This document shows, piece after piece, positions 1-8,788 of a stretch of 21,238 nucleotides of DNA; position 1 is the stretch's first letter, and the number at the start of each line of letters is the position of its first letter. The notes beneath the pieces were generated by a model, which had not been told where the DNA came from, did not search any database, and saw only the letters and a list, made by a program, of their open reading frames with translations. Both the position numbers and the translations under genes were made by a program. Source of the DNA: a virus. The stretch is from the IMG/VR virus record IMGVR_UViG_3300011126_000075, positions 1 through 21,238 of that record, one strand, 5' to 3'.

Positions 1-52
1 TTGGCACCGCACAGGTTGGCGTCGCACAGGTTGGCACCGCACAGGTCGGCGC
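1..52 (-). repeat. 15-bp tandem repeat encoding pentapeptides
   Basis: About three and a half copies of a 15-bp unit, read on the plus strand as TTGGC(A/G)(C/T)CGCACAGG, encode the A(N/D)LC(G/D) units of the pentapeptide-repeat protein. The array runs off the left edge of the window, so its copy number is not known. Confidence 0.75.
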
Positions 53-119
53 GGCAGCCACCCTTTCCTGCTCGCCATAACCCATGACCCTCTATAATTT
101 TTTCAATCTTTTTTTTCAT
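1..119 (-). CDS. Pentapeptide-repeat protein, N-terminal part (cut by window edge)
   Basis: This is a leftward reading frame starting at the ATG at 119-117, with AGGA about 7 bases upstream. The 39 visible residues begin with a short charged segment (MKKKIEKIIEGHGLW). They then run into A(D/N)LCx units: RADLC, GANLC, DANLC, GAN. This matches the pentapeptide-repeat signature A(D/N)LxX, which folds as a right-handed quadrilateral beta-helix. A cysteine occupies the same position in each visible unit, so cysteines would stack along one face. The gene lies downstream of ssb on the same strand, separated by a hairpin. Its role is unknown: family members include DNA-mimic gyrase inhibitors (Qnr/MfpA) and many phage proteins with no known function. 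The rest of the gene is outside the window. Confidence 0.8.
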   Translation of the reverse strand, partial: MKKKIEKIIEGHGLWRAGKGGCRADLCGANLCDANLCGA

Positions 120-3739: not shown

Positions 3740-4086
3740 ACCCAGAAACAAACATACAGAACGCAATACTTTTAGCTCTATCAAAGGCTGGCTGTCTTGT
3801 TTTCAGAAATGAGACAGCAGGCGCATGGGTTGGGCGGATGCTTCACAAGGATAGCAATATCGTAACGCTATCGAATGCCAGCATGGTTCGATTTGGTTTA
3901 TGTGTTGGCAGCTCTGATATTGTAGGGATAGCGCCATGCGGACGATTTTTAGCTATAGAGGTGAAGACCTCGACGGGCAAGGCAACCAAAGAGCAGAGAA
4001 GGTTTCTTGCTGCGGTTAGCGGTGCTGGCGGCATTGCTGGTATTGCACGAAGTGTAGATGATGCTCTAAACTTAATTCGCGGATAG
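3736..4086 (+). CDS. VRR-NUC domain nuclease
   Basis: This 116-aa single-domain nuclease of the PDDEXK superfamily shows GSSDIVGI (58-65), FLAIEVKT (71-78) and Q87. D61, E75 and K77 are the likely metal-binding and catalytic residues. Small stand-alone VRR-NUC proteins in phages are thought to cleave branched DNA such as Holliday junctions, or to assist replication-fork processing. The length is typical of the stand-alone family. It overlaps the helicase stop by ATGA and is followed, after 72 bases, by the primase/ATPase gene. The context supports a job in replication or in resolving intermediates before packaging, but the substrate cannot be read from the sequence. Confidence 0.88.
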   Translation: MNPETNIQNAILLALSKAGCLVFRNETAGAWVGRMLHKDSNIVTLSNASMVRFGLCVGSSDIVGIAPCGRFLAIEVKTSTGKATKEQRRFLAAVSGAGGIAGIARSVDDALNLIRG

Positions 4087-4158
4087 GGCGGCCACCCGAA
4101 CGGCAGCTAGTCACTGTCTTCCGCTTCCTTCTGACTACCTTTGACTGAGGCTATGTTT

Positions 4159-6915
4159 ATGTCCACTGTAAAACCTACGGCTTGGTATGCGGCGCGTTAC
4201 GTTGAGCGCTACGGCATGGCTGTTATTCCGCTAAAGCAAAAGAGCAAGCTGCCAGTCGAAAACGACTGGGGTAACCGCGCCATCACTGACGCCGACAAAG
4301 CCGCCGAGCTGTGGCACGCATCGCCGCGCCTTAACATTGGGTTGGCTCTTGGCCCTTCCGCTATGTGCAGCTTGGATATTGACTGCATGGACTCTTTTCG
4401 AGTCATTGCCGACGAGTTCGGGATTGATATTGATAAAGAGTTAGCAGCAGTCCCAACAATTCAGGGAGCATCCAAGGGTATGCGCTGCATGTTTAGGGTG
4501 CCGAAAGATCACGGCATCATGGACTATCACAAGATAAACTGGCCTGCTGAGTCTGACCCATCCGGTGAGATTCACCGGCAAATCATGCGCGACGCTGCGC
4601 AAGCTAAGGCGGACGGCAACACCAAGGCGGAGGCGCTATTGCGTGCTGACGCTAAGAAGCACGCCGCTTTCACCGTGATAGAGTTGCGCGTCTCAGTGAG
4701 CGGGCAACAACGGTTCGATGCGCTGCCGCCGTCCATCCATCCCGACACCGGCCAGCCTTACCGCTGGATAGTTCAGCCGCCCAAGACGCTAGACGAATGG
4801 CCCGAGCCTCCCGCTTGGCTGATGGCTATTTGGAATGCGTGGGAGAGCTTTAAGCCTCAGCTGGTTGACGCTTGCCCGTGGCTGCCAAGGCAAGAGCCAC
4901 CACCGATACAGCCAGCTACTGTAGACACTAATAGCGGAGAGTCACCGATTACGGCGTTTAACGACGCTAACGACCTACCGGCGACGCTAGAGCGCTACGG
5001 CTACCAGCGCAAGGGTAAGCGTTACCTTTCTCCCCATAGCCACACAGGGTTAGCAGGCGTTACCGTTCTGCCTGATGGCCAGCGGTGTTACATCCATCAC
5101 GCTAGTGATCCGCTTTGCTCTGATGACAGCGGCAAGCCCGTTAACCCGTTTGACCTGTTCTGCCATTACGACCACAGCGGCGACACTAGCAAAGCGGTCA
5201 AGGCGGCGGCTGAGATACTCGGCATGACTATCAAGAGGGCGGCACCTACCGCCCAAGCTGTCGCCATATCGCAACCTGCTGAGGTTGATACGCCTGCCGA
5301 TAACACCGCGCCTTCGCAGCCGTTCCGTCCTCTCGGTTACAACAGTAATAGCTACTTCTACCTGCCACGCGGTACTGAGCAGGTTGCAGAGATTCGCAAG
5401 GGAAGCCACACAAGCCCAGCTGAGCTGATGGGGCTCGCCGCCTTAGAGTGGTGGGAAATGGCCTACCCAAAAGGGAAGGGGGGTGGCGCGGACTGGCACG
5501 CCGCTGCTAACGACTGCATGAGGGGATGTGAGAGAAGAGGGATATACAGCAACGAGCGTGAGCGTGGTCGAGGCGCGTGGTACGACGCTGGGCGTTCGGT
5601 GCTACACCTCGGTGACCGATTACTGGTTAACGGCGCCGCCACCGCTATCCCTGACCATGGGAGCGAGTTCATCTACACACGCCAAGCACCGCTTGAGCAT
5701 GGCGCCGACGCTGTGCCCGCTACTGACTCGCAGGCTGCCGACGTAGCTAACCTATTCGGGCAACTTAACTGGCACAAGCCGATGCACGCCGAGCTACTGG
5801 CCGGATGGTGTCTGCTGGCACCAATCTGTGGCTCGCTAACATGGCGTCCGCACGTCTGGATAACAGCGCAACGGGGGGCCGGTAAGTCGTGGGTGCAAGA
5901 CAACATCATACAGCCTTTGTTAGGGCCATCCGCGATGATGGTGCAGGGCAGTACAACCGAGGCCGGTCTACGCCAGCGGGTTCGACATGACAGCAGGCCT
6001 ATCGTGTTTGATGAAGCCGAGAGTGAAGACAATCGCAGCCAGCACCGGATGCAAACGGTTATAGAGCTGGCTAGGCAGGCGTCTAGCGACTCCAGCGCAG
6101 AGATAGTCAAGGGCACCGTTGGCGGTCATGCTATGAGCTTTCGCATCCGGTCAATGTTCCTCTTGGGCCCTGTTAACGTGTCCCTCACGCAGGCTGCCGA
6201 TGAGTCGCGCTTCTCTGTGCTGTCGCTCGCCACGCCCGCTAAGACGGCGCAGGAAGCGGAGAGGTTCGCAGCTTTTCGCGATCACGCCGCCAACACACTA
6301 ACAGCGGGCGCTTGCGCTGCTATCCGTGCGCGAGCTTACCGCCTTATGCCCGTTATTCGTGATAACGCCGTTACGTTCGGCAGAGCGATAGCTGAGGTGT
6401 TGGGCAGCCAAAGGCTTGGTGATCAAGTTGGCACCCTCCTTGCTGGCGCATACGCCTACAGGTCATCGGGGCGGATATCGCTTGAAGATGCGCGTACATG
6501 GGTTGCTACTATGGATTTTAGTGATGCCAAGGAAGCCGAATCGGTTAGCGATGAGGAGGCGTGCCTACAAAAGATACTTCAGCACCAAATACGCTTTGAT
6601 TCAGAGGTTGGGCATATACAGCGCTCAATAGGAGAGCTCGTAGAATGCGCCTCTGGTGGAGGCTTTATAGGAGGGTTGTCACCAACCGCCCTGAATGACG
6701 TTCTGAGGCGTTATGGTGTTACGGCTGACAAAGATAGCCTCACAGTAGCTAATCGCCATGTAGAGCTTGATAGGGTGTTTACCGGCACACCTTGGGCCGC
6801 TGGCTGGCGGCGAATCCTCGGACGCATTGACGGCGCGACAAACTCAGCTGAGGCTGTAAGGTTTGCGGGCGCAAGAAGTAGGGCGGTTGTTATCCCGATG
6901 GCCTATATTGAATAG
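4159..6915 (+). CDS. Prim-Pol primase fused to a P-loop ATPase/helicase
   Basis: This 918-aa replication protein carries a bifunctional primase/polymerase domain at its N-terminus. WYAARYVERYGMAVIPL opens it, the catalytic pair is in SLDIDC (D73 and D75), and PPSIHPDTGQPYRW holds H194. A middle region around 270-360 (RYLSPHSHTGLAGV, NPFDLFCHY) resembles the linker domains of phage primase-helicases. The C-terminal ATPase has Walker A QRGAGKS (K576) and Walker B IVFDEAE (D618-E619). It would prime and unwind DNA at the phage origin, and the repeat-rich non-coding DNA directly downstream fits that. The ATG at 4159 is preferred because GAGG sits 8 bases upstream; a TTG at 4141 and an ATG at 4153 are less well placed. 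The domain calls are strong, the helicase class less so. Confidence 0.88.
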   Translation: MSTVKPTAWYAARYVERYGMAVIPLKQKSKLPVENDWGNRAITDADKAAELWHASPRLNIGLALGPSAMCSLDIDCMDSFRVIADEFGIDIDKELAAVPTIQGASKGMRCMFRVPKDHGIMDYHKINWPAESDPSGEIHRQIMRDAAQAKADGNTKAEALLRADAKKHAAFTVIELRVSVSGQQRFDALPPSIHPDTGQPYRWIVQPPKTLDEWPEPPAWLMAIWNAWESFKPQLVDACPWLPRQEPPPIQPATVDTNSGESPITAFNDANDLPATLERYGYQRKGKRYLSPHSHTGLAGVTVLPDGQRCYIHHASDPLCSDDSGKPVNPFDLFCHYDHSGDTSKAVKAAAEILGMTIKRAAPTAQAVAISQPAEVDTPADNTAPSQPFRPLGYNSNSYFYLPRGTEQVAEIRKGSHTSPAELMGLAALEWWEMAYPKGKGGGADWHAAANDCMRGCERRGIYSNERERGRGAWYDAGRSVLHLGDRLLVNGAATAIPDHGSEFIYTRQAPLEHGADAVPATDSQAADVANLFGQLNWHKPMHAELLAGWCLLAPICGSLTWRPHVWITAQRGAGKSWVQDNIIQPLLGPSAMMVQGSTTEAGLRQRVRHDSRPIVFDEAESEDNRSQHRMQTVIELARQASSDSSAEIVKGTVGGHAMSFRIRSMFLLGPVNVSLTQAADESRFSVLSLATPAKTAQEAERFAAFRDHAANTLTAGACAAIRARAYRLMPVIRDNAVTFGRAIAEVLGSQRLGDQVGTLLAGAYAYRSSGRISLEDARTWVATMDFSDAKEAESVSDEEACLQKILQHQIRFDSEVGHIQRSIGELVECASGGGFIGGLSPTALNDVLRRYGVTADKDSLTVANRHVELDRVFTGTPWAAGWRRILGRIDGATNSAEAVRFAGARSRAVVIPMAYIE

Positions 6916-7289: not shown

Positions 7290-7505
7290 ATGATTAAACA
7301 GACACCCATGCAGGTCAGAGTTCAAGCAAGAACCGAAATCGAGAAAAAGACCGCCGAGTTTCTAGCAAGAGGCGGCAAGATATACAAAGCCAAGCAGGGC
7401 GAGAGCGGCAAAAACGACGTTTCTCGGGCGTTCATCATAAGCACTGAGGCCGAGAGATCGGCAAGGCGCGGAAGGGAGCGATCGAAGAAAGTTAAAGAAT
7501 TTTAA
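7290..7505 (+). CDS. Small basic protein of unknown function with FLARGGKI motif
   Basis: This 71-aa, strongly basic protein starts at an ATG preceded by AAAGGA. It has a helical N-terminal half containing TAEFLARGGKIYKAKQGESG (21-40) and a highly charged Arg/Lys-rich C-terminus (residues 55-71). I recall the FL-x-R/K-GGKI pattern from small phage and plasmid proteins that have no assigned function. The charge suggests binding to nucleic acid or a nucleoprotein, but there is no recognisable helix-turn-helix. It is the first gene after the origin-like region and may have its own promoter. Function unknown. Confidence 0.7.
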   Translation: MIKQTPMQVRVQARTEIEKKTAEFLARGGKIYKAKQGESGKNDVSRAFIISTEAERSARRGRERSKKVKEF

Positions 7506-7905: not shown

Positions 7906-7924
7906 AGCCCGCCAGTCGCGGGCT
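7906..7924 (+). terminator. Hairpin between accessory genes
   Basis: AGCCCGC (7906-7912), loop CAGTC, and GCGGGCT (7918-7924) form a perfect 7-bp stem 19 bases after the 97-aa gene. The U run is poor (TCATTCTC), so termination is probably partial. The ribosome-binding site of the next gene (GGGGAG) follows directly. Confidence 0.55.
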
Positions 7925-7946
7925 TCATTCTCAAGGGGAGTAAGAA

Positions 7947-8582
7947 ATGGGACAAAAGACACAGGTTTTTGCGACCTATGAAGACTTTTTAAAAAGAAGT
8001 GACAAGAATCTAAACGGGGTTTCCCACGACTTCGCCGCAGAGCGTCCGAGCTACGCTGAAGATAATCAGGCAAACACTGGATGCTGGAATTGCAGCGGTT
8101 GCAGCTATTGCAGCGGTTGCAGCTATTGCAGCGGTTGCAGCTATTGCAGCGGTTGCAGCTATTGCAGCGGTTGCAGCGGTTGCAGCGGTTGCAGCTATTG
8201 CAGCGATTGCAGCGATTGCAGCGATTGCAGCGATTGCAGCTATTGCAGCGGTTGCAGCGGTTGCAGCGGAAGAGAGGCGGCTCACCCTATCCCTGTTGTT
8301 GAAAACCTACATCAAAAACTAGCCGCGGCTGTCACAAAAGCCGACGCTTTGGACATGAGCTCGTGGCATTCGTGCGAGACTACGCACTGTCGGGCGGGCT
8401 GGGTTGTTCATCTGGCGGGAGAGGCAGGCTATGCGCTTGAAAAATTTCACAACACAGCGCTTGCAGCTCAGCTAATCTACAGGGAGAGTGGTTATAAAAT
8501 AAATCCCAGCCGATTCTTTGACTCTGATTCAGTCGCCATGGACGACATGATCAGGTTAGCCAAAGAGGAGGCCGCCCAATGA
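7947..8582 (+). CDS. Cysteine-rich protein with 20 tandem Cys-Ser-X repeats
   Basis: This 211-aa protein has three parts. The N-terminus (1-48) contains TYEDFLKRSDKNLNGVSHDF and ends GCWNC. Residues 49-108 are exactly 20 tandem Cys-Ser-X tripeptides with X = Gly, Tyr or Asp. A C-terminal domain (109-211) contains ALDMSSWHSCETTHCRAGW, with two more cysteines (C143, C148), and ends INPSRFFDSDSVAMDDMIRLA. I recall this C-terminal domain from other phage proteins where it follows different short-period repeats, which suggests a modular repeat-plus-cap design. The repeats might form a beta-helix-like stack, bind metal ions or form disulfides; none of this is shown by the sequence. A strong GGGGAG site precedes the ATG, and the gene overlaps the next by ATGA. 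Function unknown. Confidence 0.85.
   Translation: MGQKTQVFATYEDFLKRSDKNLNGVSHDFAAERPSYAEDNQANTGCWNCSGCSYCSGCSYCSGCSYCSGCSYCSGCSGCSGCSYCSDCSDCSDCSDCSYCSGCSGCSGREAAHPIPVVENLHQKLAAAVTKADALDMSSWHSCETTHCRAGWVVHLAGEAGYALEKFHNTALAAQLIYRESGYKINPSRFFDSDSVAMDDMIRLAKEEAAQ
8091..8270 (+). repeat. Twenty 9-bp tandem repeats (TGCAGC + GGT/TAT/GAT)
   Basis: This is an uninterrupted array of 20 nine-base units. Each begins TGCAGC and ends GGT (Gly), TAT (Tyr) or GAT (Asp); the last ends GGA. The order by residue is G Y G Y G Y G Y G G G Y D D D D Y G G G. Every cysteine codon is TGC and every serine codon AGC. Such uniformity points to recent expansion by slippage or unequal recombination of 9- and 18-bp units, which preserves the frame. 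Confidence 0.97.
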
Positions 8583-8788
8583 CCTGCAAACAAATCTACA
8601 AAAACGAAGAGATCACCCCCGACTCGGTTATCGTTACCGAGATACTGCAAAATCAGAATACCGGCTTTTTTGATGTCTATGTGACGCACAACGGCTGCGA
8701 CGCTGTGCAGATGGGTGTTGATACGCTGGATAACGCGCATATTGCAGCATCGGCACTGGCTGACAAATTGAGGGAGATAGCGGAATGA
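8579..8788 (+). CDS. Small protein of unknown function (69 aa)
   Basis: The ATG overlaps the stop of the Cys-Ser-X gene (ATGA), and AGGAGG lies 7 bases upstream inside that gene, so translation is coupled. The 69-aa product is acidic. It has a beta-rich first half (SVIVTEILQNQNTGFFDVYVTHNG) and a helical end (AHIAASALADKLREIAE), so it is probably a small alpha/beta domain. I do not recognise a family. It is followed by another ATGA-coupled gene. Confidence 0.75.
   Translation: MTCKQIYKNEEITPDSVIVTEILQNQNTGFFDVYVTHNGCDAVQMGVDTLDNAHIAASALADKLREIAE

Follow-up and report, generated by a model that had tools for sequence, protein, structure and literature searches.

The DNA analyzed here (the window) is a stretch of 21,238 nucleotides, positions 1 to 21,238 of IMG/VR virus record IMGVR_UViG_3300011126_000075. 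At positions 7947-8582 of its plus strand lies a complete gene, stop codon included, which starts with ATG and carries the Shine-Dalgarno-like sequence AAGGGGAG (7933-7940) 6 nt upstream. The protein is 211 aa long and consists of an N-cap, a cysteine-triplet array and a C-cap. The N-cap (residues 1-45, positions 7947-8081), supported by AF2 confidence (pLDDT 81-92), alignment and a pattern scan, is of the type FATYEDFLxRxDKxxNGVSxDFA...NxxNxGCWNC, here called N-cap A, and similar N-caps are present in isolated phages. The array (residues 46-108, positions 8082-8270) begins with Cys46-Trp-Asn and continues with 20 uninterrupted Cys-Ser-X units, in which X is Gly ten times, Tyr six times and Asp four times. 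The C-cap (residues 113-211, positions 8283-8579) is helical, is marked by HSCETTHCRAGW and the motif WHxCxTTHCRAGW, is here called C-cap I, and corresponds to the C-terminal part of PHROG 31265. A sequence-only reading of this DNA had already described 20 perfect units at residues 49-108, with X restricted to Gly, Tyr or Asp, and 23 cysteines in the protein; the open reading frame bears out both statements.

At the DNA level, the array is a 9-bp repeat, TGC AGC NNT (8089-8268; TRF period 9/18), and is the sole long tandem array that TRF found in the window. It is far beyond chance and more than a mere DNA repeat, and its 9-bp period also gives rise to an antisense ORF (8010-8285) and a second plus-frame ORF (8081-8302) as side effects. 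The array RNA folds well (z -5.9), which is attributed to the palindromic TGCAGC units, the calculation covering this codon context alone, and the Rfam search matched nothing. A VIPR guide RNA (vrRNA) was also considered; vrRNAs are noncoding GGY/NN repeats of 5 nt (PMC13142463). This candidate was ruled out because the array is coding, has a 9-nt unit, varies its constant part by synonymous codons and uses nearly only A or G at the second position of the X codon.

The window protein has no Pfam match even at E 1, and none in NCBIfam or PADLOC. PHROG 31265 matches residues 114-210 (E 7e-24), the alignment covering profile positions 148-249 of 264 only and not the whole length or the pentapeptide region, and PHROG 15341 matches the array (E 4e-9); both families are annotated as of unknown function. 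The stop codon of the gene overlaps (ATGA) a small ORF of 69 aa (8579-8788, plus strand), which is probably translationally coupled to it and has no significant family match.

The array gene sits between a replication block (helicase, VRR-NUC, primase-polymerase) and the genes of the small and large terminase, and in the nearest phages by terminase the syntenic slots hold unrelated small genes. The opposite strand encodes an SSB, a DUF3799 nuclease and, at the contig edge, the start of a second solenoid gene (3-119, minus strand; MKKKIEKIIEGHGLWRAGKGGCRADLCGANLCDANLCGA), which adjoins the SSB gene, is cut by the contig end and has pentapeptide-type repeats that contain cysteine (ADLCGANLCDANLCGA). 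The recombination genes YqaJ (16 loci) and ERF (10 loci) are the only neighbours that recur widely near arrays, YqaJ being present in 9 of 34 records, a frequency given with no background rate. As far as context goes, this fits an intracellular accessory gene rather than a virion part. Two other features were observed nearby. Two genes upstream of the array gene, a 71-aa protein (7290-7505, plus strand) matches the SutA RNA-polymerase-binding domain PF20661 with an E value of 1.9e-7, above the cut-off; it is possibly a phage-encoded modulator of host transcription. In addition, GC-rich hairpins followed by TTCATTC were seen by eye at 7907-7923, just upstream of the array gene, and at about 179-197, beside the SSB gene, and are perhaps related terminator-like elements.

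Spread of the family and exchange of its parts

About 170 related arrays, of 6 to 59 units, occur in phage contigs, in two isolated phages (Flavobacterium phage FL-1 and Vibrio phage 1.238) and in prophage-like loci, with 51 related loci coming from one scan of viral contigs. A search for the C-cap among phage and viral sequences, the check that the sequence-only reading had proposed, found 409 viral places, 80 of which were read, so that the cap is not unique to the window protein; the same profile found 36 loci in bacterial genome assemblies, including isolates of Kaistia, Rhizorhapis, Phyllobacterium and Dyadobacter. Relatives of the N-cap, sought by a DNA pattern, amounted to 75 stretches, some of them already known. 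Query genomes apart, the N-cap had no further match in 394 other genomes of one phylum (0/394) and the C-cap none in 273 genomes of another class (0/273); from this absence in two broad cellular genome samples, the family is taken to be mainly one of mobile elements.

Several cysteine-array paralogues with the same N-cap and different arrays occur together in one phage genome, as in a 158-kb contig (the source of L035, L198, L213, L227 and L231) and for L048 and L221. In Flavobacterium phage FL-1 the reading frame of the array protein (4007-4823) is interrupted within the C-cap, where the annotation lists two hypothetical proteins. The relative in Vibrio phage 1.238 (L205) is annotated as an insect antifreeze protein, a name that finds no support in Pfam, presumably derives from the cysteine spacing and is probably misleading.

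The sequence-only reading had also proposed that the C-terminal domain can be separated from the array and sits on phage proteins with other repeats. This proved correct, and the exchange is wider than was claimed, extending to the N-caps and to a second C-cap. C-cap I follows cysteine arrays that start with N-caps A, B and D, and it also follows PF00805 pentapeptide repeats in L151 (E 3e-37), L156 (E 7e-23) and L172, on a Bordetella plasmid (E 5e-57). By reading, and with no Pfam match to the repeats, it was found once after LRR-like repeats (L149) and once after Ala/Trp repeats (L171). The pentapeptide member L156 matches PHROG 31265 from profile position 74. These pentapeptide proteins with the CETTHCRAGW cap resemble the window protein in C-cap I, in the order of N-cap, array and C-cap, and in a repetitive array of variable length, but their repeat is A(D/N)LXX with a period of five and their N-cap is another one. 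The window protein belongs with PHROG 31265 by its C-terminal CETTHCRAGW cap, whereas its period of three and the absence of a Pfam match set it outside PF00805.

A second cap, C-cap II (IGSR...CGCF), behaves in the same manner. It follows cysteine arrays, and in isolated phages it follows YdcK beta-solenoid repeats (PF18836; L259, E 1.5e-41, and L261, E 3e-15), hexapeptide repeats (L258) and pentapeptide repeats (L260). The YdcK/hexapeptide solenoids of phages therefore have C-cap II in common with cysteine-triplet arrays, but their repeats are of the form YGNA(R/K)V and lack the cysteine ladder, and the window's own C-cap is of type I. Proteins of PHROG 15341 have the same array with cysteine at every third residue (L052, E 4e-27) but another N-cap and another C-cap, which in L052 is C-cap II. 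Because two unrelated C-caps are each common to cysteine arrays and known solenoids, the cysteine array itself is likely to be a rod, and this is the main evidence for that conclusion that does not depend on a structural model. A gene of L206 (4811-5767, minus strand) encodes N-cap A followed first by cysteine triplets and then by cysteine-containing pentapeptide repeats, and is perhaps an evolutionary intermediate.

Composition, coding and turnover of the arrays

Among 170 non-redundant arrays, the core positions are 99.3% cysteine, the second position of the unit is mostly Ser, and X is mostly Asp, Gly, Arg, Tyr, Asn or Ser, with His also occurring in practice. The three-residue register is strict, CC and CxC being nearly absent over thousands of units, and array length has no clear preference modulo 4 or 3. 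Ala almost never stands in for the core cysteine. In distant members the position is occasionally occupied by Ser, Gly, Ile, Leu or another residue, a pattern more in keeping with packing than with obligatory metal ligation and also consistent with an inward position.

The sequence-only reading had named a metal array and disulfide rungs among the possible forms of the ladder. The array might be a metal-binding one, in which inward rows of thiolates hold Zn, Cu or Fe-S clusters for storage, detoxification or electron transfer: 99.3% cysteine is far above what packing alone seems to need, and CxxCxxC is a usual metal-binding spacing. However, the same caps carry cysteine-poor pentapeptide and hexapeptide arrays, so that metal is not the shared function, the core cysteine is sometimes Ser, Gly, Ile or Leu, and the arrays hardly ever contain CC or CxC and match no metallothionein family in Pfam or NCBIfam. 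We consider a metal array unlikely, though conceivable.

The earlier statement that no repeat class has a period of three was too strong, since the fold of insect antifreeze protein points every third residue inward and heterocycloanthracin precursors contain Cys-Xaa-Xaa repeats. The precursors suggest another reading, namely that the array is a substrate for thiazole/oxazole modification, like a heterocycloanthracin-like bacteriocin precursor, as Cys and Ser are the residues that such enzymes cyclize and the Cys-Xaa-Xaa repeats of the precursors are strain-variable (PMC2674419). This is extremely improbable. Those precursors have a short leader and a C-terminal repeat, lack a folded C-terminal cap and are accompanied by modification enzymes in the genome, whereas the array is internal and is followed by a folded conserved cap that also occurs on repeats with no cysteine; YcaO was found in none of 20 phage records, the window included (0/20), although the enzyme could be host-encoded.

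Codon usage suggests what is conserved. Across 109 arrays taken from other loci, the repeat unit is written in 13 synonymous contexts (TGCTCGNNC, TGCTCCNNC, TGCAGCNNT, TGCAGTNNT, TGTTCGNNC and others), all encoding Cys-Ser-[NNY]; the array search pattern itself required Cys-Ser, so that the result is informative for the spread of codons. This indicates that selection acts on the protein. Within one array, 97% of the units share a single constant hexamer; uniform unit DNA within arrays combined with synonymous differences between loci indicates that arrays are homogenized by local duplication or conversion while the amino acids are kept across phages. The X codons have nearly only A or G at the second base, and TG (Cys) is almost absent, a bias that fits an amino-acid rule and not a DNA or RNA rule.

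Arrays also differ where their surroundings do not. C-caps that are 90-100% identical carry arrays differing in length and in the order of X, with a mean X identity of 0.33. In the pair L210/L230 the flanks are 99.9% identical (9 mismatches in 7216 bp upstream and 0 in 927 bp downstream), and the arrays have 30 vs 50 units. The sole differences between L202 and L241 in 6.0 kb are one 27-bp indel and one mismatch, both within the array, and the sole three differences between L011 and L013 in 5.8 kb fall in two adjacent X codons; in other near-identical contig pairs the arrays are identical. Taken together, the sequences suggest that arrays are hypervariable and change faster than the caps, although they come from metagenome assemblies, and short-read assembly of repeats is error-prone and may itself produce such differences. 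Reverse transcriptase (RVT_1) was absent from 16 records, the window included and many of them fragments, which makes a diversity-generating retroelement unlikely.

Turnover of this kind bears on two other readings. The protein might be a DNA mimic, or an inhibitor of gyrase or topoisomerase like MfpA and Qnr, given that some members are pentapeptide proteins, that recombination genes recur nearby and that pentapeptide DNA mimics are rods which dimerize through C-terminal helices (PMC8145042). Against this, the arrays are not uniformly acidic: their charge averages -0.13 per unit and runs from -0.79 to +0.29, with 28% of them not negative. Moreover, mimicry would need neither a hypervariable X nor such variation in length; we regard it as quite improbable. 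Alternatively, the array, as a solenoid of almost identical triplets, could act as a code of one residue per unit, in which the target would be specified by X (D, G, R, Y, N, S, H) and the caps would supply a constant function, X being reshuffled by repeat recombination as targets change, by analogy with the repeat number and variable residues of TAL effectors. Such a code is, in our estimate, very improbable.

Predicted structure of the arrays

The sequence-only reading had offered a beta-helix-like stack as one possibility, and structure prediction gave a divided answer, with a fairly confident array model for a relative and a poor one for the window protein itself. In the AF2 model of the window protein the caps are folded, and C-cap I has pLDDT mostly above 88 except for the stretch 131-150, whereas the array has pLDDT 30-48. 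A second run used a relative of richer sequence from Vibrio phage 1.238.A (L205), whose N-cap is 56% identical to that of the window, with a nearly gap-free alignment of 44 sequences. Here the array is a beta-solenoid, in which DSSP assigns a bridge to every third residue between 45 and 108, with pLDDT in ten-residue blocks mostly about 76-90, lower at both array ends; the five models vary, their means going from 73 down to 50.

Foldseek found no significant PDB match for the whole window model, and VIA gave a weak calponin-homology match to its C-cap (Z 3.2). Likewise, the L205 model has no significant Foldseek match in the PDB (E 0.54 for 1L1I); VIA placed the insect antifreeze protein 1L1I first (Z 5.1, 79/84 residues), tied with other beta-solenoids and at background level, the other rows being mostly beta-helices. 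The match to 1L1I is weak and says "narrow beta-helix" at most. The antifreeze protein (TmAFP) resembles the L205 model as a cysteine-rich beta-solenoid with an inward residue at every third position, but it is secreted, has TxT ice-binding faces and fewer cysteines per coil, and lacks such caps; the window array has no Thr-X-Thr row and no match to an antifreeze family in Pfam. Among BFVD entries, the L205 model matches the cysteine-rich proteins A0A5B8IEK9 of Mimiviridae sp. ChoanoV1 (37% identity) and H6SUK4 of Campylobacter virus IBB35 (36%), so that giant viruses may have cysteine-triplet solenoids as well.

The closest known structure, 1L1I, is disulfide-bonded, and the ladder could likewise be oxidized into disulfide rungs, giving a very stable rod for use after lysis or outside the cell. 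The near absence of Cys-to-Ala replacement agrees with this but would also fit a small core. On the other side, the sequence, read by eye, has no apparent signal peptide or transmembrane segment, the gene is flanked by replication and packaging genes, and the cytoplasm is reducing. A solenoid with disulfide rungs is rather improbable. We place at the same level the idea that the array is disordered, a low-complexity cysteine linker or sponge that joins two functional domains. The low AF2 confidence of the window array and array lengths of 6-59 units would agree with such a linker, but the strict three-residue register with almost no CC or CxC, the exchange with true solenoids and the solenoid model of L205 do not.

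Independently of the models, periodicity at X was compared with shuffled arrays. Tyr at X recurs four units (12 residues) apart 139 times vs 109 in the shuffles (z +4.1), and Gly has a smaller excess at the same lag, so that the signal is partly common to Gly; no such recurrence was seen for D, R or N. The non-Cys core positions, too few for a period test, had no significant four-unit period (z +1.4). The fold is predicted to be a solenoid with about 12 residues per coil.

Proposed architecture and its meaning

We propose that the protein is an intracellular accessory protein of the phage, a rod made of a solenoid with a cysteine-packed core between two caps, and we consider this architecture and fold somewhat better than an even bet. 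The N-cap, with its short strands and helices, would start a narrow beta-solenoid, probably a right-handed one, where each third position, the cysteine, would point inward as a stacked ladder and Ser and the variable X would point outward. The helical C-cap would close the rod and probably hold a conserved activity or contact. Because known solenoids take the place of the array beside the same caps, the array is best described as a rod module, for which pentapeptide, hexapeptide/YdcK and LRR-like solenoids could be substituted.

As to function, repeat recombination would lengthen, shorten and reshuffle arrays much faster than caps and so present a changing X surface, which, most simply, would bind a factor of the host or of a rival phage that also changes. 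Binding of variable targets through the X face is a tentative proposal, with the odds against it, in which the location in the cell, the binding role and the target are all inferred.

No description of the array protein, or of the modular exchange of caps, was found in the literature searched, and we put forward the cysteine-triplet array as a new repeat class within the beta-solenoid repeat proteins, one with cap exchange. If this is right, a minimal solenoid, with a three-residue unit and one core cysteine in each, joins the known repeat folds, and phages keep the end caps yet exchange the whole rod among pentapeptide, hexapeptide, LRR-like and cysteine-triplet forms. The cysteine ladder could also give protein design a simple template on which to line up thiols or metals. 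Finally, the remodelled arrays in near-identical contigs suggest that the binding surface evolves fast; an unrecognized conflict between phage and host, or between phages, would then be open to experimental test.
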